Positions 51,582-64,000 of a stretch of DNA of 64,000 nt are shown here, piece by piece; positions within the stretch are counted from its first letter, which is position 1; every line of letters starts with the position of its first letter. Location of the stretch: positions 1 through 64,000 of the forward strand of contig CANQRR010000010.1 in the NCBI GenBank assembly GCA_947626285.1. Reading direction: 5' to 3'. This DNA is from an uncultured Lachnospiraceae bacterium (GTDB lineage Bacteria > Bacillota > Clostridia > Lachnospirales > Lachnospiraceae). The position numbers and the translations under genes were made by a program. Below the pieces are notes generated by a model. The model searched no databases. It saw only the letters and a list, made by a program, of their open reading frames with translations, and was not told the origin of the DNA.

Positions 51582-52514
51582 ATGTCCAATATTTATACAT
51601 CCGCCGATCAGCTGATCGGCAGGACTCCGCTTTTGGAGCTCACACACATTGAAAAGGAACTTGACCTGAAGGCAAAGATCGTCGCGAAGCTGGAGTATTT
51701 CAACCCGGCGGGTTCGGTCAAGGACCGTGTCGCCAAGGCGATGCTCGACGACGCTGAGGCGGATGGGAGGCTGAAGCCGGATTCCGTGATCATTGAGCCA
51801 ACTTCCGGCAATACGGGAATCGGGCTTGCCGCCGTGGCTGCGGCGCGGGGTTACCGGATCATTATCGTCATGCCGGAGACGATGAGCGTGGAACGCCGTC
51901 AGCTCATGAAGGCGTACGGCGCAGAGCTGGTACTGACGGAAGGCTCCAAAGGAATGAAAGGGGCGATCGCGAAGGCGGAGGAGCTGGCAAAGGAACTGCC
52001 GAACAGCTTCATTCCGGGACAGTTTGTGAATCCCTCCAATCCGAAAGCGCACCGTGAGGCTACAGGGCCGGAGATCTTTGCGGATACGGACGGCAAGGTA
52101 GACATCTTTGTCGCGGGCGTCGGTACCGGCGGAACGGTCACAGGCGTCGGAGAATACCTGAAATCGAAAAATCCGTCTGTCAAAGTCGTCGCGGTCGAGC
52201 CCGCTTCGTCGGCAGTCTTGTCCACCGGAGTGGCAGGCGCCCACAAGATTCAGGGAATCGGCGCTGGCTTCGTTCCCGATGTGTTGAACACGGAGATTTA
52301 TGATGAGATCATTCCGGTCTCGAATGAGGACGCGTTTGCGACCGGCAAGCTCATCGGAAGAAAAGAAGGCGTTCTGGTCGGCATTTCCTCCGGCGCGGCT
52401 GCCTTTGCCGCGATCGAGCTGGCGAAGCGCCCGGAAAATGCGGGGAAGACGATCGTCGTTCTCCTGCCCGACACCGGCGACCGCTATCTGTCCACGCCGA
52501 TGTTCGAGGATTGA
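51582..52514 (+). CDS. cysK: Cysteine synthase A
   Basis: The 310-residue PLP enzyme makes cysteine from O-acetylserine and sulfide. It has the PLP lysine in [14 protein letters not shown], the substrate loop [14 protein letters not shown], the [13 protein letters not shown] phosphate loop and [11 protein letters not shown]. The C-terminal [14 protein letters not shown] is typical of CysK. It shares a transcript with metY, and a terminator follows. Confidence 0.95.
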
Positions 52515-52873: not shown

Positions 52874-53878
52874 ATGGGAGATTTTCCGAAAAACGCGCGC
52901 ATTCTGAGCATGTATGTGCGTTTCTGCGAGGGCAGGGTGATCAGCAAGGCGGACGAAGCGAGGAGATTCTGCGTTGACGAGCGGTCGATTCAGCGCGATA
53001 TCGACGACATCCGCGCGTTTCTAGACGAGCGCAGCATAGAGGGAGACACGCGCACCATCGTGTATGACCGGGCAAAGAAAGGCTTTTTGATGGAGGGGTC
53101 GGAGCCGTCCATGATGACGAACAGTGAGATCCTGGCCGTTTCGAAGATACTGCTGGAGAGCCGCGCGTTCACGAGACGTGAGCTGAACAGCATCCTTGGA
53201 AAGCTGGTAGAGGGCTGTGTCCCGCTCAACAATATGAAGCTGGTTAGTGAGCTGATCGCCAATGAGAAGTATCATTATGTGGAGCTTCATCACAAGGAAT
53301 ACATACAGGACAAGCTCTGGGCCATCGGTTCGGACATTCAGGAGCGGAATTTGGTCTCACTGCGTTATGCCCGTGCGAATGCTCCGCGGGAATCCATCAA
53401 AAGGATCGTGGAGCCGGTCGCTATTCTGTTTTCAGAGTATTATTTCTACCTGAACGCGTTTATCGTGGAGCAGGACGAAGCGGGGAAATACGTCCACAAA
53501 TATGATTATCCGGCCATCTTTCGGATCGACCGGATCAAGGATTACAGGCAGATGAACGAGAAATTCCGGGTGTCCTATGCCAACCGTTTCGAGGAGGGGG
53601 AATTCCGGAAGCGGATCCAGTTCATGTATGCGGGCAGATTGATGACAGTGCGACTGAAGTATTACGGAGAAAATCCGGAGGCGATCCTTGACCGACTGCC
53701 GACCGCCCGTGTGGTTGAGCAGTATGAACACGAATGCATCATAGAGGCAGAGGCGTATGGAAAAGGAATGCTCATGTGGCTTTTGAGTCAGGGCAACAGG
53801 GTGGAAGTGCTGCGCCCGGAGAGCCTGCGAAAGGAGATGCAGGAGACGCTTGAACAGATGTTAGAGAGATATCGGTAG
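52874..53878 (+). CDS. WYL-domain transcriptional regulator
   Basis: The 334-residue protein has an N-terminal helix-turn-helix (about 5-60; ISKADEARRFCVDERSIQRD), a linker domain, and a WYL domain (about 150-240; ERNLVSLRYARANA, then VEPVAILFSEYYFYLNAFIV and a run RIDRIKD). A C-terminal WCX-like domain ends it. WYL regulators often sense nucleic-acid or nucleotide ligands and control phage-defence loci (BrxR, CapW). The two matching dyads, one before this gene and one before the GTPase unit, suggest autoregulation and control of the island. ATG 52874 follows AGGAGGG. Confidence 0.87.
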   Translation: MGDFPKNARILSMYVRFCEGRVISKADEARRFCVDERSIQRDIDDIRAFLDERSIEGDTRTIVYDRAKKGFLMEGSEPSMMTNSEILAVSKILLESRAFTRRELNSILGKLVEGCVPLNNMKLVSELIANEKYHYVELHHKEYIQDKLWAIGSDIQERNLVSLRYARANAPRESIKRIVEPVAILFSEYYFYLNAFIVEQDEAGKYVHKYDYPAIFRIDRIKDYRQMNEKFRVSYANRFEEGEFRKRIQFMYAGRLMTVRLKYYGENPEAILDRLPTARVVEQYEHECIIEAEAYGKGMLMWLLSQGNRVEVLRPESLRKEMQETLEQMLERYR

Positions 53879-53910
53879 AGAAGAAATTTTCGTTGGAGGA
53901 TCAGAGGGAA

Positions 53911-55056
53911 ATGTTAAACAACAGTTACAGTCTCCGTATTTATGATACTGAGCTGATGAAATTTATTCTGGAGAAGCGTGGTCTGGAAGGTCTTGTGGCA
54001 GAAATCATTTCTGTGAACGAGGAATTGCGGTATCTGCTTCCACTGGACATGGAGTGTACCGGGGAGGGAATCGTCAAATGGCTGGAACGTCGCGTGATCC
54101 CCAAGAACAGAACATTCGTGGATGAAATTCTGAAAACGCTTGGGCTCAGTCACAACGATACAAAAGGAATCATTGATGTCTGCAAGGGATTGTCTCTCAA
54201 TGACAGCTACTGGGTCGTGCCGGAAGACTTTGACGGACAATTTGCCGATTACAATCTGTATGAAAACCGTTTTTCGGAGATGCTGGCATTGGTGGCTTAT
54301 ACCGGCGCGGGACAAAGTCGGGAAGCATTCACTACATCCCCGGAACTGACGACGGGCGGTATGTTGCCAAAGGCATGGCGTCTCGTTGAGGGGGACGGCA
54401 TCTATCTCTACAAGGGCGGTTCCAGCGGCGCGTCCAACACCGGGCGCGAACCGTACTGCGAATATTATGCTTCTCAGATTGCGGAGACTATGGGGATCAA
54501 CGCCGTACACTATGATCTTGAGAACTGGAAAGGGATCACAGCCTCCAAATGCGCTCTGTTCACGGATGTGGACACGTCATACATTCCTATCGGCAGGCTG
54601 GTGAAGGCAGGTGGGATCGGGAAGTGCCTGGAGTATTACGATGCTCTTGGACCGACATTTGGTGAACACATCCGCAGTATGCTGGTCTTTGACGCGCTGA
54701 TTTATAATGAGGACCGGCATTTCGGAAATTTCGGGCTCCTGCGGGATAACCATACCGGGAAGATCAAGGCGCCGGCCCCTGTCTTTGACAATGGACTGTC
54801 CTTGCTGTGCTATGCCGGGCGGGAAGAGATCGAGAATTTTGAGGCGCTGCAGGAATACGCCGTGACCAGGACAGATCCCTACGGTCTGTCCTTTGAAGAG
54901 GTATGCGCCGCGGTGATGGGCGCGAAGCAAAGAGAGCAGCTGCGGAGGATGATCGGCTTTACCTTCAGACGGCATCCGTCGATCAATTTGCCGGAGCAAC
55001 ATCTGAAAGCGTTGGAGAGGCTGTTGGAGATCAGGGTAAGAAAATTGTTGGGATAA
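53911..55056 (+). CDS. HipA-like kinase domain protein without HipB partner
   Basis: The 381-residue protein has a C-terminal HipA-like kinase core: a glycine-rich YLYKGGSSGASNTGREPYCE segment for ATP, the catalytic loop YNEDRHFGNFGLL (Asn266, Asp268) and the metal motif FDNGLSLL (Asp293). An N-terminal part of about 150 residues differs from HipA. HipA toxins phosphorylate translation factors and are held by HipB, but no small HTH antitoxin lies adjacent. The gene follows the WYL regulator by 32 bases and probably shares its transcript; a terminator follows. Kinase function is inferred from motifs. Confidence 0.75.
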   Translation: MLNNSYSLRIYDTELMKFILEKRGLEGLVAEIISVNEELRYLLPLDMECTGEGIVKWLERRVIPKNRTFVDEILKTLGLSHNDTKGIIDVCKGLSLNDSYWVVPEDFDGQFADYNLYENRFSEMLALVAYTGAGQSREAFTTSPELTTGGMLPKAWRLVEGDGIYLYKGGSSGASNTGREPYCEYYASQIAETMGINAVHYDLENWKGITASKCALFTDVDTSYIPIGRLVKAGGIGKCLEYYDALGPTFGEHIRSMLVFDALIYNEDRHFGNFGLLRDNHTGKIKAPAPVFDNGLSLLCYAGREEIENFEALQEYAVTRTDPYGLSFEEVCAAVMGAKQREQLRRMIGFTFRRHPSINLPEQHLKALERLLEIRVRKLLG

Positions 55057-55196: not shown

Positions 55197-55436
55197 ATGA
55201 ACGAGTCAATTGTGGCAAGGCACAAAATCTGCCCTCTGTGCGGAACGCTGTACTATTGGAATCCGGGCTCGACAGATATAAGGAGAAATCGGTGTCCGGA
55301 ATGTCACGGCAGCATTGCGGTGGCATTTGTAAAAAGGATTCAAAGGTCGAAGAAGAACCAAAATGGAGGAGAAGGAAATGAAGAAGACTATGGAAGAGCT
55401 GCAGGAAGGAATGAAGAAGACAATGAGAACAATTAG
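55197..55436 (+). CDS. Small zinc-ribbon protein 1
   Basis: The 79-residue product has two cysteine pairs in HKICPLCGTLYYW and NRCPECHGSI, about 20 residues apart, a clear zinc ribbon. A basic then Asn/Glu/Gly-rich tail follows and overlaps the start of the GTPase gene by 59 bases. A GGAGGAGGG and AAGGAA region precedes the ATG. It is a paralogue of the protein at 56965-57159 (shared HKICPLCGT, RCPEC and GSI). Function unknown; such ribbons often bind nucleic acid or protein partners. Confidence 0.7.
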   Translation: MNESIVARHKICPLCGTLYYWNPGSTDIRRNRCPECHGSIAVAFVKRIQRSKKNQNGGEGNEEDYGRAAGRNEEDNENN

Positions 55437-56511
55437 GGATTTGCAGGGAGAAAGGCGCGGAACGATCAAGGAGAGCATGGACGATCTCTGCGAGGCGCTG
55501 GAGAATGAGATCATCAGCGGGAATGCGGATGAGGAGACGAAAAAAGAACTGCTGAAGAAATTCAGAAAGTTCTGCAACACGGAGACGAACATCATGCTGG
55601 TAGGAGCGACCGGTTCCGGTAAAAGTTCTACGATCAACGCGCTGTTTGGCTGTGGTGAGACGGAAAGCTCTGATGAAACCGATTCCGAAGAAAACGTATC
55701 GAAATACATCGAAGTCGCGAAGGTGGGGAGCAAAGCGGATCCCGAGACAAGGGACATTGAGAAATATACCATCGGGAAACTGATCCTGTGGGACACTCCG
55801 GGTCTCGGAGATGGAACCGATATCGACGTGCATCACCGTGATGTGATCCGGGAACTGCTGCGTGAGGAGGATGAGGACGGCAACGCACTCATTGATCTGG
55901 TGCTCGTCATTCTGGATGGATCGACGAAAGACCTGGGCACCTCATACAAGCTCATTAACGAGGTTTTGATCCCGGAGCTCGGAGACGAGACGAACCGCAT
56001 TCTAGTCGCTTTGAACCAGGCGGATATCGCCATGAAGATCGGGCGCCACTGGGACTATGAAAAGAATCAGCCGGATGAAACGCTGGTGGAATATCTTGAG
56101 CAGAAAGCTGCGTCGATCCGGGAGAGAATCAAAGAGGATTCCGGCATTGACATCGACCCGATCTATTACTGCGCCGGTTATAAAGAGGAGAGCGGCGAGG
56201 TGCTCCGCCCGTATAACCTGTCCAAGCTGCTCTACTACATCCTGAGCGCACTCCCTGCCCAGAAGCGTATTGCGATCATGGAGGGCATCAACACGGACGC
56301 GGACAATTACGAATCCAACGACGACGATATGGACTACAACCAGGCGGTGACCGACAGTTTTTTGGACGATTATGACATCTACGTCTCGGAAGGCGTGGAC
56401 AAAGGGGCTGAGATCGGGCACACGATACTCGGTATTCCGGGTATGATCGTCGGAGCGGTGGTCGGCGGCGCGATCGGGAGCATCAAGAGTATTCTGAGCG
56501 ATATCTTTTAA
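55378..56511 (+). CDS. P-loop GTPase with C-terminal glycine-zipper segment
   Basis: The 377-residue protein has a helical N terminus (1 to about 65) and a GTPase domain: G1 GATGSGKS (76-83), G3 DTPG (139-142), G4 NQAD (213-216). It resembles the TRAFAC group of YeeP/YfjP or AIG1-type GTPases more than dynamins. An acidic stretch follows, then a final 31 residues rich in Gly, Ile and Val (GHTILGIPGMIVGAVVGGAI and after) that look like a membrane-inserting glycine zipper. ATG 55378 has GGAGGAGAAGG just upstream. A membrane-acting effector is a possibility, not shown. Confidence 0.8.
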   Translation: MKKTMEELQEGMKKTMRTIRDLQGERRGTIKESMDDLCEALENEIISGNADEETKKELLKKFRKFCNTETNIMLVGATGSGKSSTINALFGCGETESSDETDSEENVSKYIEVAKVGSKADPETRDIEKYTIGKLILWDTPGLGDGTDIDVHHRDVIRELLREEDEDGNALIDLVLVILDGSTKDLGTSYKLINEVLIPELGDETNRILVALNQADIAMKIGRHWDYEKNQPDETLVEYLEQKAASIRERIKEDSGIDIDPIYYCAGYKEESGEVLRPYNLSKLLYYILSALPAQKRIAIMEGINTDADNYESNDDDMDYNQAVTDSFLDDYDIYVSEGVDKGAEIGHTILGIPGMIVGAVVGGAIGSIKSILSDIF

Positions 56512-56884: not shown

Positions 56885-56964
56885 CAAATAGGTTTGCAGG
56901 TATGTTTCTATGTTTCACGCGGAAAAATACACCCGCGTGTCTATTTTGACGTGGAGGTGATCGT

Positions 56965-57159
56965 ATGTCAATCCGGCTGGCACACAAAATATGTCCGTTG
57001 TGCGGGACATTTTATTCTTATGATCCACACGCAATCGGAATGAGAGCAAAGAGATGTCCGGAATGCCGAGGAAGCATTATAAAAGCAGTAAATGAAGAAT
57101 GTGATGGGAAGACAACCTTTAACGCTTTTTTTGTGTACGATGATAGGAATAGAGACTGA
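56965..57159 (+). CDS. Small zinc-ribbon protein 2
   Basis: The 64-residue product contains HKICPLCGTFYSY and KRCPECRGSI, the same zinc-ribbon layout as the protein at 55197-55436, with a different acidic/aromatic tail. The ribosome-binding site GGAGGTGATC is near ideal. It is the last gene before the A+T-rich GTPase operon, so each paralogue precedes a GTPase unit. Function unknown. Confidence 0.72.
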   Translation: MSIRLAHKICPLCGTFYSYDPHAIGMRAKRCPECRGSIIKAVNEECDGKTTFNAFFVYDDRNRD

Positions 57160-57552
57160 AGAAGTCGCAGCGACTGCAACCAAACGTCCAGAAAAGAATC
57201 ACGATAAATATTTCATCGGGGGAGAGGGTTGGCTTAGGATATCTTCGATATTATCCATGATGGGATCTTAGGCAAAATGATTGAAGGCAGGACAGGAGTG
57301 CCAAGAATATTTTGCTTTTTTTCGAGATGAATCATCTGCCATATCTGGAGTGATGATATCCTATAATAATTATCAATCCATAGCATTCTTGTGAACTAAA
57401 TATGAAAATAAAATAATTGACATGTAGGTATGTAATGATTATGATTATTCTGTAAAAGAAGCAATTTAATATATTATGGCTTGAATTTTCCGACTTATGA
57501 TAATGAACTTGAATATGAAAAAAATACCAAGGAAAAGAATGGAGAAAAGGAT
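57160..57552 (+). promoter_or_regulatory. A+T-rich gap with the promoter of the dynamin-like GTPase operon
   Basis: No gene is supported here. A strong promoter, TTGACA (57417-57422) and TATGAT (57440-57445) with an exact 17-base spacer, lies about 108 bases before the first GTPase start. The sequence shifts to high A+T within this gap, which probably marks an island or module boundary. The ATGACA-N5-TGTCAT dyad is not present. Confidence 0.6.
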
Positions 57553-59226
57553 ATGATTAACAAGGCAATTAATAAAGAGAAAGCATTATTAGTGCGAAAC
57601 ATTACAGAAAAATATGGTTTGATGGATCAACTCGCAGAATTGGACAATTTTATAGCTAGGAACGAGGAATATAAGGCTCATATTTTAATGTTGGGCGGCT
57701 ATAGTGCGGGAAAATCTGCTTTGCTAAATAAGTATATAGGTAAAAAAGTTTTAAAGGAGAATCAAGGTCCTGAAACGGATATTGCTGTTGAACTTTATTT
57801 TTCTGAAAAGGAGCATATTGTAGCAAATATGTTGTCCGGGTCAAAGCAAGAGATATCAGATATAGAGCAAATTAATATTGAAGAGACTCGGAATATTGAA
57901 TATTACCTTAACAGTGAGAATTTAAAGACACAGAGCGATTACATTATGGTTGATACTCCTGGTTTTGATTCGGGCATAGAAAAGCATAATAAAGCCTTGA
58001 TGCAATATGTTGACCGTGGGACTGCCTTCTTTTTAGTGATTGATTGTGAGAACGGTACTATTTCGGAGAGTACATTAAAGTTTATAAATGAAGTAACGAA
58101 CTATAGCACAGACATAGCAGTTATCATTAATAAATGTGATAAGAAAACTGATACAGAAATCGAGGAAATTAGAGAACATATAGAGGATTTACTGCTAGCA
58201 TGGACAGGAAGGTCATTCCCGCTTATTTGTACATCAATCTACGACGATGATGTTGAGAAGAAAATGAAGCAATTAATAGGTGGGTTTAATCCACAGTATT
58301 TATATGATAAGACTATAACTTCTGAGCTGAAGAGACGAGAAGATGAAATAGTTCAGGCTTTGGAGGTACTTAAAGAAAAGACAACATGTAATACGGAGGA
58401 GATTGAAGAAGAAATAGTTAAAAGAGAGAATGCACGAAAAAGACTTCTTGAACAAATCAATTTGCAGAAAAAGAGATTGGGGACGAAGCTTCACAATGAA
58501 ATAAAGGAGCAGATTGTGTCAAATGTATATTCTCAGTTAATGTGTAATGCCGAAAGTCTTGCTTCAGCTTACAAAGGTGGCATTGAATTGTTTCAGGAAA
58601 GGGTAATTGAGATAATAAGACCGGTAATGATTTCGGAAATAGAAAACTATTCGTCGCTTGCTTATGAAGATTTTATCAAGCATTTAAATTATAAAGACAT
58701 AGATGTATTAAATAATTCAGATGAAATTACTGAGGTAGTTGAAAGCGTATATGAAAAACTGATAGAGCTTAGTAAAGATGGAGCTATATCTGTGCCAGTA
58801 GTGCATGAAAGCGATAACACAAATTTAGCCGACAGTGCAATGAAGACATATCGGGCTGTTAGCTCTATTTTGGCAATTGCCACTGATGCCGTAGCGCCTC
58901 CGTTGGAGCTATTGATTGTATTTTTGCCGGATATAATAAAGCTTTTAGGTGTGTTAACGGGCAATACAAAGGAGCAGCAACTTGTTGAGGTAATACAGAA
59001 TAAAATCATTCCACAGATTGTTGCAAAAGTGAGAACGGAGTTGGACAAATCGCTTAATGAAGTTGAGTCTGTTATGTTGGTTGATATTTCTGCCAATGTT
59101 GAAGAAATATTAAATATAGAGAATGAGGCATTGGAAGTTGCGAAAAATAAAAAGAGTGAAACTGAGAGTACATATTCAGAATTTATCTCTTCAATAGATG
59201 AAGACATAGCGGCAATAAGAAAGTAG
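57553..59226 (+). CDS. Dynamin-like GTPase 1 with C-terminal hydrophobic segment
   Basis: The 557-residue protein has G1 GGYSAGKS (48-55), G3 DTPG (from Asp134) and G4 NKCD (193-196). A long helical region follows (about 250-420; the run EEIVKRENARKRLLEQ is coiled-coil-like). Next comes a hydrophobic stretch (about 436-468, SSILAIATDAVAPPLELLIV and on) that could dip into membrane like a dynamin paddle. Another helical segment ends it. ATG 57553 follows GGAGAAAAGG; a TTG at 57481 would add 24 residues. First gene of a tight operon; the next start is nine bases after its stop. Codons are far more A+T-rich than in the genes before 57 kb. Confidence 0.82.
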   Translation: MINKAINKEKALLVRNITEKYGLMDQLAELDNFIARNEEYKAHILMLGGYSAGKSALLNKYIGKKVLKENQGPETDIAVELYFSEKEHIVANMLSGSKQEISDIEQINIEETRNIEYYLNSENLKTQSDYIMVDTPGFDSGIEKHNKALMQYVDRGTAFFLVIDCENGTISESTLKFINEVTNYSTDIAVIINKCDKKTDTEIEEIREHIEDLLLAWTGRSFPLICTSIYDDDVEKKMKQLIGGFNPQYLYDKTITSELKRREDEIVQALEVLKEKTTCNTEEIEEEIVKRENARKRLLEQINLQKKRLGTKLHNEIKEQIVSNVYSQLMCNAESLASAYKGGIELFQERVIEIIRPVMISEIENYSSLAYEDFIKHLNYKDIDVLNNSDEITEVVESVYEKLIELSKDGAISVPVVHESDNTNLADSAMKTYRAVSSILAIATDAVAPPLELLIVFLPDIIKLLGVLTGNTKEQQLVEVIQNKIIPQIVAKVRTELDKSLNEVESVMLVDISANVEEILNIENEALEVAKNKKSETESTYSEFISSIDEDIAAIRK

Positions 59227-59235
59227 GTGTACATA

Positions 59236-61437
59236 ATGGGAAAAAGATATGAAGAAGCATCAGAGATAGTTTTAAAAGGGTTAAAAGGTTTTGAAGGCTT
59301 TTACTCCAAAGAATATTATCATAATTTCGAAGATAGAATTCTCGACCTGAAGAGAAGAATTCAGGATTCTACGCAGGAAGGAAGGTTGCTGAGAATTGGA
59401 ATAGTGGGGGAAGTAAAGGCCGGCAAGTCTTCGTTTTTGAACGCATTGATTTTTGACGGAAAAGATGTATTGCCCAAAGCCAGTACACCAATGACTGCTG
59501 CTCTCACAAAAATAACTTATTCAGAAAAACCATCCGCAACAATAGTCTTCTATAGTGAGAAGGACTGGGATCGAGTAGCTAGTTATGCGAGAGAATATGA
59601 TTTGGAGTTTGAGAAATACTATAATGATTACAAAAAGAAGGTTTCTCAACTAAACAGAAATATAATTGATAGAACGACATTGAAAACAAAAGAGGATATG
59701 ATGCGATCTTTTAATAAAATTGCATCGATACAATTGGTGTCATGCAAAGAACTGACTGATATGTTCAACAAATCGTCTGAAAACTTAGATACATATTTAG
59801 GTCAGACGAAGGACTTGCAGATTGATGACTTAGATGCCACTCTATATGATTACATAGGAGCAAACGGAAAGTATACAGCTATTGTCAAACATGTAGAGCT
59901 GAGAATGAATAATGAAATTCTTCAAACTGTCGAAATTGTAGACACGCCGGGATTGAATGATCCGATCATAAGCAGAGGTGAAATGACAAAGCGGTTTTTA
60001 AGGGAATGTGACGTTGTATTTTTGCTGAGTTATTCGGGACAGTTCCTTACTCAAGAAGATATATTGTTTATGTGTGAAACTTTGCCTAATGAGGGAATTA
60101 GAAATATTATTCTTGTCGGCAGTAAATTTGATTCTGGGATTTTGGATGACAATAAGTCGAAAGACATTAGAACTGCCTGCAATTCATCAAAGGCAACTTA
60201 CGATGCTCAGGCGAAAGAAAATATTAAGAGGTGTTTAACAAGTGGATATAATCGTGAGGTACTAGGTAGAATTCAAAGTTCTCTGCCTCCAAGTTATATA
60301 TCATCTGTTTTATTTTCATGTGCAAAAAAGAAAAAGCAGGGTGTGTCTTATTCAGAACAGGAACAAAACATTATAAACCAGCTGAAAAGGCATTTTAAGG
60401 ATTTTGAAGATGATGAGAAAACATTGTTGGCATTATCAGGAATCAATCAGATAAAAAGAAATAGGCTCTTTCCGGTGATGGATGCCAAAAAGGAAATTAT
60501 TGCTGAAAGGAACAGAGAAATATTATCTGATAATAAAAAAATTTTGTTGACCCTTCTTGAAGATATAAACATACAAGTGTTACAGAATAAAGACGATATA
60601 GAACATTACGATAAAAATCAACTGGAAAAGAAATTACAGGCGCTTCAGTCAAAACTTAATTCAATGAGACGGGAAATAAAGTATATTTTTGAAAAGGCGT
60701 CGAGTGAAGCGGACAAATTTCTGAATAATATGAAAGTGGATATTGACTTGGAGGTTGATAATTATATCGATTTCAATATTCATTCAAAAACTCGTGTTGA
60801 GCACGGTTCATACAGGAGAGGATTTTTAGGTCTTATAAAAGAGAATTATACAGAGGAAATTATTACCTATACAGCTTTGATATCTGATGTTATCTCTAAT
60901 ATGAGAAATTATATTAGCAGATGCAAAAAGTATGCTAATGAAGAATTTGAAAAGATTATAAATATCGGTAAGTTGAAAAAGGAAATAAAAGAAATAGTAA
61001 TTGGAGCCTTTGATTTGAGTGGCAGTGATTTCAGGGAGGAGGCTATTCTTATACCACTTGATATTGTGGCGAATCAAATTCAGATTCCTAAAATCGATAT
61101 AGAGCCAACCGAATTTGAAAACTCAATTATTGACGCATTTTCAGGTGCTGTGGTTACGGGAGATGAGATTCATGAACTGCGTTTGGTGGAAAACAAAGTG
61201 TTAGGGGATATTTCAAAGAGGATTAAGAACGAGTTGGATAATTGTAATAAAAAAATCGATCAGGTAATGGCTGAGCAAGCAAGTACATTTGTAGACAAAA
61301 TAATTGAGACGTTGAAAAGTAATGTTAAAGCATTAAAGGATCAGATTGATGACAGGGAAAATGCCATAAGGCAGTACAATACTTTATGCAACGCTCTTGT
61401 TGAATATAAACAGTTAATTAATGAAATGGAGATGTAA
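59236..61437 (+). CDS. Dynamin-like GTPase 2 (large)
   Basis: The 733-residue protein has G1 GEVKAGKS (58-65), the dynamin-type LPKASTPMTAALTKI switch (Thr87 or a neighbour as G2), G3 DTPG (from Asp236) and G4 SKFD (296-299). About 330 residues of largely helical stalk with coiled-coil runs follow (QLEKKLQALQSKLNSM; KNELDNCNKKIDQV). This is the classic bacterial dynamin-like layout. No strong membrane helix is visible, so membrane contact, if any, would be through a partner or an amphipathic tip. ATG 59236 has AGGTG upstream. It overlaps nothing but is only nine bases after GTPase 1. Confidence 0.85.
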   Translation: MGKRYEEASEIVLKGLKGFEGFYSKEYYHNFEDRILDLKRRIQDSTQEGRLLRIGIVGEVKAGKSSFLNALIFDGKDVLPKASTPMTAALTKITYSEKPSATIVFYSEKDWDRVASYAREYDLEFEKYYNDYKKKVSQLNRNIIDRTTLKTKEDMMRSFNKIASIQLVSCKELTDMFNKSSENLDTYLGQTKDLQIDDLDATLYDYIGANGKYTAIVKHVELRMNNEILQTVEIVDTPGLNDPIISRGEMTKRFLRECDVVFLLSYSGQFLTQEDILFMCETLPNEGIRNIILVGSKFDSGILDDNKSKDIRTACNSSKATYDAQAKENIKRCLTSGYNREVLGRIQSSLPPSYISSVLFSCAKKKKQGVSYSEQEQNIINQLKRHFKDFEDDEKTLLALSGINQIKRNRLFPVMDAKKEIIAERNREILSDNKKILLTLLEDINIQVLQNKDDIEHYDKNQLEKKLQALQSKLNSMRREIKYIFEKASSEADKFLNNMKVDIDLEVDNYIDFNIHSKTRVEHGSYRRGFLGLIKENYTEEIITYTALISDVISNMRNYISRCKKYANEEFEKIINIGKLKKEIKEIVIGAFDLSGSDFREEAILIPLDIVANQIQIPKIDIEPTEFENSIIDAFSGAVVTGDEIHELRLVENKVLGDISKRIKNELDNCNKKIDQVMAEQASTFVDKIIETLKSNVKALKDQIDDRENAIRQYNTLCNALVEYKQLINEMEM

Positions 61438-61439
61438 AT

Positions 61440-62717
61440 ATGGGATTTTGGGATGTTGAGGATGATGTAGAGGACTTTCTGACGGACGATTATGTTCAGG
61501 AAGAATGCAATCGTTATTTGTCCGACACGGAAGCAGCGATTGATTTGATAGCCAAAATAATTCCTATATCCAGAGAACGCTATTCAGAACGAAAGAGCAT
61601 ACAAATGATAGATGATATGCTTGACGTTGACTTTCTATCCGCATTCAGACGAATTCAATTAACAGATGAGGCACAGCTTCAAGTGAGGCTTGCTTTGTTG
61701 AGCGATAAACTGGTTGAACAAAAGAAATATGAGGTGTTGAAGAATAAACCAATCGTAGGACTAGGTGGCAAATTTAGCGCCGGAAAATCAAAATTCATCA
61801 ATTCTATTCTGAAAGCCGGAGAGGAATTGCTTCCAGAGGATCAAAATCCGACAACGTCCATACCGACATATATAGTATATGGTGGCGCAGAAGAAATATG
61901 TGCATATACATCAGACAATGAAAAGGTTCTGCTAGACATTGAGGCTTTGCAGGCATTGACACATAAATTTTACGAAAAATATAAAATGGGATTTTCTTTT
62001 TTTATCAATAGCCTCATTATTTCAGAGCCAGATATGCCTTATAGAGAACTGGTTTTTTTAGATACACCCGGATACAGTAAAGCAGACTCTGTAGGGAAAA
62101 ACAAAAAACAAAAAGAATTGACAGATGAAAATAAAGCGTACGCCCAATTAAGAAACGTAGATTATTTGATATGGCTTATAGATATAGAAAATGGAGTGTT
62201 AACGGAACCGGACATTGCATTTATTTCAAAATTAGGACTTGAAACTCCTATTTTAATTGTAGTTAACAAGGCAGATAAAAAAATAGATACAGAGATAGAG
62301 TCAATTGTAGAGTTGGTAAGAAGAACAGCAATAAATTCAGGAATAAATTTATTTGGAGTGACTGCTTATTCTTCAAGCAATAATGAAGAGTGGAGGAGCG
62401 CAAATATTATATCGGATTTTTTGGAAGTGGCAAAAAGGAAAAAAGCAAGCAGGGATGATATAGTTGAGCAAATTGAAATAATTAAAAACAAAGTTTCCAG
62501 AGAAATTGAAAAAAAGATAAATGATAAAGTGAAAGAAAGAAATACTTTAAATAATGTGATTTTTAAATCTGATGATATTATGGAAATAAAAACTCTGATT
62601 AATTTGTATGGAGAATCCATGGAAGAAATTCGAGATATGAGGGAATGCAGGAAAAAATATCAGGCGAATATTAGAAAATTAGAAAAGACTTTAGAGAAAC
62701 AGTATGGCAGGAGGTAA
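61440..62717 (+). CDS. Dynamin-like GTPase 3 (short)
   Basis: The 425-residue protein has a helical N-terminal region of about 100 residues, then G1 GGKFSAGKS (109-117), the switch LPEDQNPTTSIPT (Thr138/139), G3 DTPG (from Asp208) and G4 NKAD (276-279). A short helical C-terminal region (about 340-425) follows. It lacks the long stalk of GTPase 2, so the two may form a hetero-oligomer, as paired bacterial dynamins do. GGAGATG precedes the ATG, two bases after the previous stop. Confidence 0.84.
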   Translation: MGFWDVEDDVEDFLTDDYVQEECNRYLSDTEAAIDLIAKIIPISRERYSERKSIQMIDDMLDVDFLSAFRRIQLTDEAQLQVRLALLSDKLVEQKKYEVLKNKPIVGLGGKFSAGKSKFINSILKAGEELLPEDQNPTTSIPTYIVYGGAEEICAYTSDNEKVLLDIEALQALTHKFYEKYKMGFSFFINSLIISEPDMPYRELVFLDTPGYSKADSVGKNKKQKELTDENKAYAQLRNVDYLIWLIDIENGVLTEPDIAFISKLGLETPILIVVNKADKKIDTEIESIVELVRRTAINSGINLFGVTAYSSSNNEEWRSANIISDFLEVAKRKKASRDDIVEQIEIIKNKVSREIEKKINDKVKERNTLNNVIFKSDDIMEIKTLINLYGESMEEIRDMRECRKKYQANIRKLEKTLEKQYGRR

Positions 62718-62721
62718 AAAG

Positions 62722-64000
62722 TTGGAAACGCGACAGAATAGAATGCTAGATGTTCTTTCTAAATTGATGGATGAACAAGACAATTCTTTTTCGGAGTTGA
62801 AAGAAAGTTATGATAATTTATACTCTGTTGTAAGAGAAAAACTACCGAAAGTTTTGGACGAAGGGGAATACACAGATAATGCTGGTATTGTAAGACAAGT
62901 AAATGAATTATTATTAGACAAAAAGATATTGACGGTTGTTCCAGAACTTGCGGTGAGAAATGTAATCGCTATATGGGGTTCTGCTCATGCAGTTGCAAAA
63001 TTGTTTGAACAATTATCGACAAAACGGTTAGGCATTGAGTTGAACTCAAATCTTCCTTTATTGATGATTCCTGTTGAGGGTTATAAAGATGATAAAATTT
63101 TAGCCATCACATATATGGATAAATTGGTACCATTATCATATGATGAATACAGATATATTACGAAAGAAGTATATAAAAATAATATTGATATTAGAAGGCT
63201 TATTAGAAGTTTCGTAATTTATTTTCAGGGAGAAGGAAACAAGCAAATATATACTGTTCTACCGGAATATGTCGATAGGGATAATGAATATTTTGATAAG
63301 ATCAAAAAGATGGTCTCGTATCAAATTATAATTACAGACGAAGAAGGCAGATGGAAAAAAAGTATAGGTAGATTATTAGAAAATGATATTTATTTTTTAG
63401 GGAATGAGGATGATTTTGAGTATATTTCAAGTAGACGGAATAATGTCATTTTAAAACGTGAAAAAGACTTCAAGGATATTTGCGAACTGTTAAATGTACC
63501 CTGTATAAATTTTGCTATTGCAATCGAATTTCAGAGAGTATTGTTGGATGTATTTATTTTTTATTGTAGAAAACGAAAGATTTTAAAAGATAAAATATCA
63601 AAATTAGCGGAGGATTCCATTAATCTGCAGGATTCTTCTGTAAAAAAATATGTTCAAAATTATCGGGAGAAGTATATCCGACTGCAGGAGAAAATGGAAG
63701 AAAAGTACAGGTCTTTTGAGAAAGTAGTAAATGAAATAGAGGAAGCATCTTTAGAATTTGAAAGCCAGAATTCAAATATGCTTGCACACAATCTGGCAAA
63801 TGATGTTATAGTAAAAATTTACACGGATTCGTTGACAAGAGCTTTTTTTAAATGTGTATATGCAGAGAAACATGAAACTGCTAAAGATATTATATTAAAA
63901 TTAGCAAAGGCAAATTATCCCTATACGAATGCGCTTGCCTGCCTGTTGAAACATGAGCAGGGAAGTGAGTTGATAGCTAGTGATATAGCAAGGATTAAAG
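62722..64000 (+). CDS. Large helical partner protein of the GTPase operon, 3' end beyond window
   Basis: The frame is open from TTG 62722 to the window end (at least 426 codons). AGGAGG lies at 62710-62715 within the end of the previous gene; ATG 62704 is in frame too but precedes that site. The protein starts METRQNRMLDVLSKLMDEQD, has a mixed alpha/beta part (about 80-260), then coiled-coil-like helices (about 300-355, with EKMEEKYRSF). It ends in helical-repeat-like sequence (AKANYPYTNALACLL). No P-loop or nuclease motif is seen in the visible part. I do not recognise the family. Confidence 0.7.
   Translation, partial: METRQNRMLDVLSKLMDEQDNSFSELKESYDNLYSVVREKLPKVLDEGEYTDNAGIVRQVNELLLDKKILTVVPELAVRNVIAIWGSAHAVAKLFEQLSTKRLGIELNSNLPLLMIPVEGYKDDKILAITYMDKLVPLSYDEYRYITKEVYKNNIDIRRLIRSFVIYFQGEGNKQIYTVLPEYVDRDNEYFDKIKKMVSYQIIITDEEGRWKKSIGRLLENDIYFLGNEDDFEYISSRRNNVILKREKDFKDICELLNVPCINFAIAIEFQRVLLDVFIFYCRKRKILKDKISKLAEDSINLQDSSVKKYVQNYREKYIRLQEKMEEKYRSFEKVVNEIEEASLEFESQNSNMLAHNLANDVIVKIYTDSLTRAFFKCVYAEKHETAKDIILKLAKANYPYTNALACLLKHEQGSELIASDIARIK

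Follow-up and report, generated by a model that had tools for sequence, protein, structure and literature searches.

Bacterial dynamins are known mainly as single proteins or pairs of unclear purpose. The available part of its description presents the pair DLP1/DLP2 of Campylobacter jejuni (dynamin-like proteins Cj0411/Cj0412, PDB 5OWV) as a heterotypic 2:2 tetramer that assembles via the DLP1 assembly domain and, as it forms, sets off GTP hydrolysis and the binding of lipid; the same text describes DynA as two dynamins fused in one chain (PMC6104087). In enterotoxigenic Escherichia coli (ETEC), the accessible text on the LeoABC dynamin cluster reports LeoA together with one GTPase split into LeoB and LeoC (PMC4159319), and a Helicobacter pylori island with three dynamin-like proteins, perhaps Leo-like genes, is mentioned in an excerpt of another report (PMC8935386). 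The DNA considered here, termed the window, is a stretch of 64,000 nucleotides (nt) from an uncultured Lachnospiraceae bacterium (contig CANQRR010000010.1, positions 1 to 64,000). Towards its 3' end lie three adjacent genes for dynamins, followed by a fourth gene for a pseudo-dynamin:

57553 to 59226, plus strand: dynamin 1 (dyn1), 557 amino acids (aa), with a complete GTPase, a stalk and a hydrophobic helix at about residues 439-457; the proposed membrane subunit.
59236 to 61437, plus strand: dynamin 2 (dyn2), 733 aa, with a complete GTPase and a long helical part without hydrophobic segment; the proposed conserved core.
61440 to 62717, plus strand: dynamin 3 (dyn3), 425 aa, a short form with a complete GTPase, whose relatives carry variable extra modules.
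62704 to 64000 and on to the contig end (C10:65063), plus strand: pseudo-dynamin, at least 786 aa, with a degenerate dynamin-3-like GTPase domain and stalk, Sel1/TPR-type repeats, a Ser-rich linker and a CFI-box.

The cassette is best read as a horizontally spread, modular, membrane-acting dynamin machine that would most likely serve in defence against phages or mobile elements, a function given about an even chance. An initial sequence-only reading of this DNA had described three adjacent dynamin-type GTPase genes with P-loops, DTPG and NKxD/SKFD motifs, separated by 9 and 2 bases, one of them with a hydrophobic segment, and this description is borne out in each particular. Within the trio (57553-62717) the gaps are 9 nt between dyn1 and dyn2 and 2 nt between dyn2 and dyn3. 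The P-loops read GGYSAGKS, GEVKAGKS and GKFSAGKS, DTPG is present in all three frames, and the G4-position motifs are NKCD, SKFD and NKAD, respectively. Pfam Dynamin_N matches each protein above its cut-off of 27 bits (dyn1 62.0 bits, 9.5e-17; dyn2 84.7, 9.9e-24; dyn3 47.0, 3.6e-12), and the same three proteins are the top matches of this family genome-wide. By these motifs and profiles they are three different dynamins, each with its nucleotide motifs intact. A hydropathy scan located a hydrophobic segment in dyn1 only. The AlphaFold model of dyn1 (predicted local distance difference test score, pLDDT, 81.8; below 50 at residues 386-436) contains long stalk helices and the hydrophobic helix, and its structural matches include mitofusins and IniA.

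The recurrence of the trio was assessed by a profile scan of genome contigs with a dyn2 alignment, from which the best 80 of at least 316 confirmed dyn2 relatives were taken; the frequency of the trio therefore applies to close dyn2 relatives. All three families occur together at 64 of these 80 loci, and a sixty-fifth trio (L060) lost its dyn2 to the simple longest-frame script used for open reading frames (ORFs). Among the 15 other loci, at least four (L059, L063, L068, L110) have space on either side and seem to be genuine cases of an incomplete trio, and several stop at a contig edge. The order is dyn1-dyn2-dyn3 at 31 of the 64 trios, dyn1-dyn3-dyn2 at 20, dyn1-dyn2-dyn3-pseudo-dynamin at eight and another at five. 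In a set of 64 trios of full-length genes drawn from all loci, plasmids included, all dynamins are on the same strand in 64/64. Pairwise distance matrices of the three families correlate at r 0.886, 0.833 and 0.938, against a permutation maximum of 0.122 (1000 permutations each). These sequence comparisons indicate that the trio is one co-inherited operon unit whose families co-evolve, and chance as the source of the operon is excluded because the trio recurs in other phyla. The P-loop is kept in every protein (dyn1 74/74, dyn2 84/84, dyn3 83/83), and G1 and D[TM]PG stand together in one chain in 68/74, 83/84 and 78/83. The motif, hydrophobicity and length counts include the window proteins and the near-identical copies L032/L033; the duplicate L029/L081 is also counted in the motif and hydrophobicity tallies.

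The named trio loci span 10 phylum labels. On the dyn2 tree, the label changes 15 times (minimum possible 9, shuffled mean 29.5), so that the trio clusters by phylum in part only, a pattern that fits horizontal transfer without proving it. All nine tree rows with a fourth gene form one set (Shimodaira-Hasegawa-like approximate likelihood ratio test, SH-aLRT, 98); L064 and L116, which also have a fourth gene, are left out of the tree as their dyn2 is broken. The E. coli plasmid copy of the four-gene cassette falls among Bacillota in this tree and is therefore likely to reflect cross-phylum transfer. The sequence-only reading had allowed that the genes might be conserved housekeeping genes outside islands, and this is now ruled out. 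A dyn2 relative is found in 1/47 genomes of the genus, the window's own, and a dyn3 relative (E<=1e-10) in 12/295 genomes of the order, its own included. A single dyn2 match is present in 18 of the 22 genomes searched for other loci; three more have a second weak match and Pelistega has two strong ones, giving one strong copy in 21/22. The set instead recurs in unrelated genomes and plasmids, about one third of the time behind a WYL gene, and its distribution marks the cassette as accessory and mobile. In E. coli, a search of 5426 complete genomes at megablast sensitivity detects it in five, on a plasmid each time; further copies sit on Pseudomonas, Calditerrivibrio and Moraxella plasmids, and a Photobacterium copy lies among the conjugation genes traC, traU and traN. 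This carriage would suit a function for the mobile element itself, namely conjugation control, entry exclusion or stabilisation through membrane action. Such a function is improbable, since several copies on long contigs adjoin BREX or restriction-modification (R-M) genes and the listed portion (25 of 99) of the Pfam families in the flanks of 17 loci contains no conjugation family.

The fourth gene was said to begin 4 bases after dyn3 and to encode a large partner of an unknown family. Its first ATG is at 62704, an overlap of 14 nt with dyn3, and the frame continues for 1063 bases beyond the window to the end of the contig without a stop codon, so that its 3' end is missing. The first ~350 residues align with dyn3 as a degenerate copy (hhalign probability 98.3, E 1.6e-14), which rules out a protein unrelated to dynamins; closer kinship with dyn1 or dyn2 is likewise ruled out (probability 3.8 and 0.4). 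The nucleotide motifs G1 (P-loop) and G3 (DxPG) occur in 0/11 fourth proteins (10 distinct, L029 and L081 being one contig; L116, below the score limit, was left out). A model of the homologue at L039 matches the folds of mitofusin, BDLP and IniA with middling Z scores. The window's protein passes the CFI-box-CTERM model NF041770 (44.0 against a cut-off of 40). The profile of the fourth family also matches dyn3 proteins, through their Sel1 repeats or GTPase part, and a CFI-box fused to dyn3 was ruled out on that ground. From the alignment, the profile and the homologue model, the fourth protein is a dyn3 relative that lost its nucleotide motifs and bears Sel1-type repeats and a CFI-box, and not an ordinary enzyme of another pathway. 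In L029/L081 and L041, the fourth protein ends in a short Ser/Tyr-rich tail with a final GW in place of the CFI-box, possibly a low-complexity assembly tail.

Across relatives, the three dynamins diverge in ways that look like a division of roles, with dyn1 at the membrane, dyn2 as core and dyn3 carrying modules. A hydrophobic segment is present in 70/79 dyn1, 0/84 dyn2 and 11/87 dyn3 proteins, and the length of dyn2 is near constant (coefficient of variation, CV, 0.03). A patatin-like phospholipase is fused N-terminally to dyn1 at L044, L045, L050, L060 and L073, in Vibrio, Pseudoalteromonas, Pseudomonas (two) and a proteobacterial bin; it was found in the dyn1 frame in 5/5 tested genomes with a long dyn1, with active-site motifs readable in four. 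Extra modules of dyn3 relatives include Sel1, ankyrin, TPR and TerB/beta-helix-related ones. Pfam places Sel1 in 5/81, ankyrin in 5/81 and FGE in 3/81 dyn3 proteins (81 of 85 tallied; L007, L023, L028 and L065 were left out for size and the duplicates L029 and L032 dropped). The dyn3 C-termini of L082, L105 and L075 (Latescibacteria, Spirochaetia) bear HHH, ankyrin and beta-solenoid modules. At L031, L034, L035, L054-L058, L062, L109 and L115, one to three TerB/beta-helix-type proteins lie between dyn3 and dyn2, and some of these loci have a large protein after dyn2, the single one tested being HerA/DUF87-like. In 23 such intervening proteins scanned at E<=0.1, TerB was matched in three (best 4.4e-8), beta-helix in eight (best 9.7e-9) and a lipoyl/biotinyl domain weakly in one (E 0.041). 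That the intervening proteins are further pseudo-dynamins is unsupported (one 40-protein cluster, hhalign probability 0.3-0.8).

Varying recognition repeats on one subunit together with a phospholipase on another form the pattern of variable sensor and effector seen in immune systems, and a defence function is preferred because the cassette matches this pattern. A mechanism can be proposed in which the hydrophobic stalk helix of dyn1 would fix this protein in the membrane, dyn2 would be the invariant core that assembles with its partners, by analogy with the C. jejuni pair, and dyn3 with its varying modules may act as the sensing or adaptor arm. In the window's variant, the pseudo-dynamin may supply the sensing arm through its Sel1 repeats and CFI-box, and its dead G domain could dock at the G-domain interface as a regulator. 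Binding of a trigger would lead to complex assembly, GTP hydrolysis and remodelling of the inner membrane. The outcome might be membrane damage that halts the infected cell, which the patatin fusion of the other branch favours, or the sealing or blocking of the site of entry or lysis. It is somewhat less probable that the cassette represents an undescribed class of immune system, built from a sensor dynamin with exchangeable modules, an invariant core and a membrane or effector dynamin that has a patatin phospholipase in one branch, to which the window lineage would add a duplicate of the sensor dynamin, turned into a dead-GTPase regulator with Sel1 repeats and a CFI-box.

A different role for the same machine is in envelope stress, where it would tether and reseal inner membrane damaged by antibiotics, bacteriocins or phage lysins and would not be immune as such. 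The nearest solved sequence relatives, the C. jejuni tethering pair and BDLP, agree with this, as do the matches of the dyn1 model to mitofusins and IniA; repair is speculated on for the C. jejuni pair in the available text, and like roles are proposed for Bacillus subtilis DynA and for IniA (PMC6104087). Membrane repair is nevertheless unlikely, given the patchy distribution, the plasmid carriage in E. coli and the lack of a second strong copy in 21 of the 22 genomes searched, and the varying repeat modules and patatin fusion suit sensing and attack better. Several further observations weigh against defence. In the portion of the literature available, the functions connected with the C. jejuni pair, with DynA and with IniA are tethering, repair or drug tolerance and not abortive infection (PMC6104087). 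The patatin fusions are confined to another branch, outside the window's variant. The length of dyn1 also varies (CV 0.27) owing to long fused forms, its middle half spanning 550-588 aa, and part of the variation in dyn3 length comes from N-terminal coiled-coil extensions and not from tails; given both, dyn3 as sensor is one reading among possible ones. In Photobacterium, the copy is surrounded by conjugation genes, and phage carriage finds no support, with no relative of dyn3 in phage records or of dyn2 in viral contigs. Defence genes were found beside only some of the loci, and PADLOC models match proteins of the control DNA as well; 15 of the 25 control rows listed are type I methyltransferase models.

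Of 47 trios with at least 4 kb of upstream sequence, 17 have a WYL gene in the 5 kb before them, and a downstream one is present in 4/48; none was found in control DNA amounting to 346 kb, taken as 18 regions of trio-carrying genomes. The WYL model derives from five such genes located beside trios, and its hits reach down to a weak 32 bits and include one on the opposite strand. At 17 loci, the six near ORFs were scanned (102 of 142 listed; a 1692-aa frame at L089 was skipped) against 102 of 153 listed control ORFs. Among the PADLOC matches listed for the 102 flanking proteins are BREX BrxL and PglZ, type I R-M and DarT/DarG. The models matched number 138 in flanks (25 listed) versus 29 in control (25 listed), counts inflated by single proteins that match many models, WYL models alone matching eight flanking proteins. 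Pfam, run on the flanks, places WYL in 11/102. On a Pseudomonas aeruginosa plasmid (L024, 1130-10284), the WYL gene and trio adjoin ZorC (2.3e-211) and a DEAD/DEAH helicase; the dyn3 of this locus has a long N-terminal extension. The membrane-guarding defence or stress system first suggested for the window is partly supported by the recurrence beside BREX, Zorya and R-M genes at some loci; defence and membrane guarding themselves are inferred.

Upstream of the trio, the window holds the following features:

57417 to 57445, plus strand: near-consensus sigma-70 promoter, TTGACA-17-TATGAT, matching 11/12 consensus positions, about 108 nt 5' of dyn1.
55363 to 56511, plus strand: GTPase4, 382 aa, an intact GTPase with a glycine-rich hydrophobic C-terminus.
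53893 to 55056, plus strand: HipA-like kinase, a match to the PADLOC candidate PDC-M03A (6e-15), adjoining the WYL regulator.
52874 to 53878, plus strand: WYL/WCX-domain transcription regulator, 3.6 kb upstream of dyn1.

The promoter is predicted by consensus match and is among the two best of 41 sites, with shuffles averaging 30 sites. GTPase4 matches Pfam MMR_HSR1 and Septin above cut-off and IIGP and AIG1 below it. Its two relatives at trio loci, at L035 (51% identical) and L042, both adjoin a WYL gene and the trio, so that with the window three loci have a GTPase4-type gene and a WYL gene beside the dynamins. A short frame with a zinc-ribbon-like CxxC...CxxC pattern lies at ~56960-57150, between GTPase4 and the dynamin promoter. 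That the HipA-like kinase belongs to the dynamin system is doubtful because no relative was found at the other loci scanned (phmmer, E<=1e-6). The WYL and HipA genes had been noted early on, along with foreign base composition nearby; the genes stand as described, and the foreign composition is confined to the four dynamin genes. These have a GC content of 0.34-0.35 and a third-codon-position GC (GC3) of 0.30-0.33, against 0.585 and 0.71 in the host gene cysK; the WYL, HipA-like and GTPase4 genes, at GC3 0.62-0.70, are near cysK. The stretch downstream of cysK is variable, because the match to a sister species that is 87% identical around cysK stops at 52514, the cysK end, and the next 2.6 kb of that species matches nothing in the window.

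If the proposal is true, an immune dynamin class would be the bacterial counterpart of the animal Mx, GBP and IRG immune GTPases. A co-inherited trio with apparently divided roles offers a concrete hypothesis for why several dynamins occur together, predicts a pseudo-GTPase regulator and ties bacterial dynamins to membrane-targeting immunity; the complete four-gene cassette of E. coli plasmid pZ1323PEC0011-3 (NZ_CP148279.1, 44300-51888) makes the hypothesis directly testable. With regard to described systems, the closest solved relatives of dyn2 and dyn3 are 5owv_A (4.6e-26) and 5owv_C (2.7e-13), and that of dyn1 is BDLP, with 5owv_C second (1.9e-21) among 60 of 80 matches listed. The likeness to the C. 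jejuni pair is one of sequence relation only. That system has two dynamins, against three and a pseudo-dynamin here, and a third GTPase, a CFI-box, WYL and patatin go unmentioned in the available part of its description (PMC6104087).

LeoABC is a known dynamin gene cluster of E. coli (PMC4159319), and a role of this type, in vesiculation or secretion, has in its favour that dyn1 (E 0.0032) and dyn2 (0.00095) find their best PADLOC match in LeoBC. Both values are at noise level, dyn3 has none, and the LeoA model has no match to the trio at E<=0.1; run on the window's own genome, the LeoBC model places dyn2 (2.7e-4) behind generic GTPases, and the LeoA model again picks up no member of the trio. 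Across 196 genomes, hits of the LeoA model were mostly frames with the lengths of other GTPases and are uninformative, and 4AUR, the solved structure of LeoA, is absent from the structure-match lists of dyn2 and dyn3. LeoABC, catalogued among defence systems as Eleos, is likewise an operon of dynamin-like genes on an island; LeoB and LeoC share one split GTPase, whereas each window dynamin has complete motifs. Membership of LeoABC is ruled out on these grounds, and vesiculation is the least probable of the four functions, behind plasmid function, then membrane repair, with defence first.

Existing annotation treats each gene separately, as a "dynamin family protein" or a "CFI-box-CTERM domain-containing protein". 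PADLOC-DB 2.0.0, the defence catalogue searched, which newer ones postdate, gave only noise-level matches for dyn1-3 and the fourth protein, and the open-access papers searched, as distinct from subscription papers and preprints, yielded no system of three dynamins with a CFI-box protein or pseudo-dynamin. HcpA is a Sel1-repeat protein; among CFI-box-CTERM proteins (NF041770), the window's differs in that the box sits on a pseudo-dynamin with Sel1-type repeats. Nostoc BDLP, mitofusins and mycobacterial IniA belong to different gene sets. The NCBIfam model of Bacillus DynA scores 35.7 bits on dyn1 and 22.8 on dyn3 against a cut-off of 1600, and in place of a head-to-tail fusion the window has three separate frames with one P-loop each. 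The system looks undescribed, a variation on bacterial dynamin operons that differs from both LeoABC and the C. jejuni pair.

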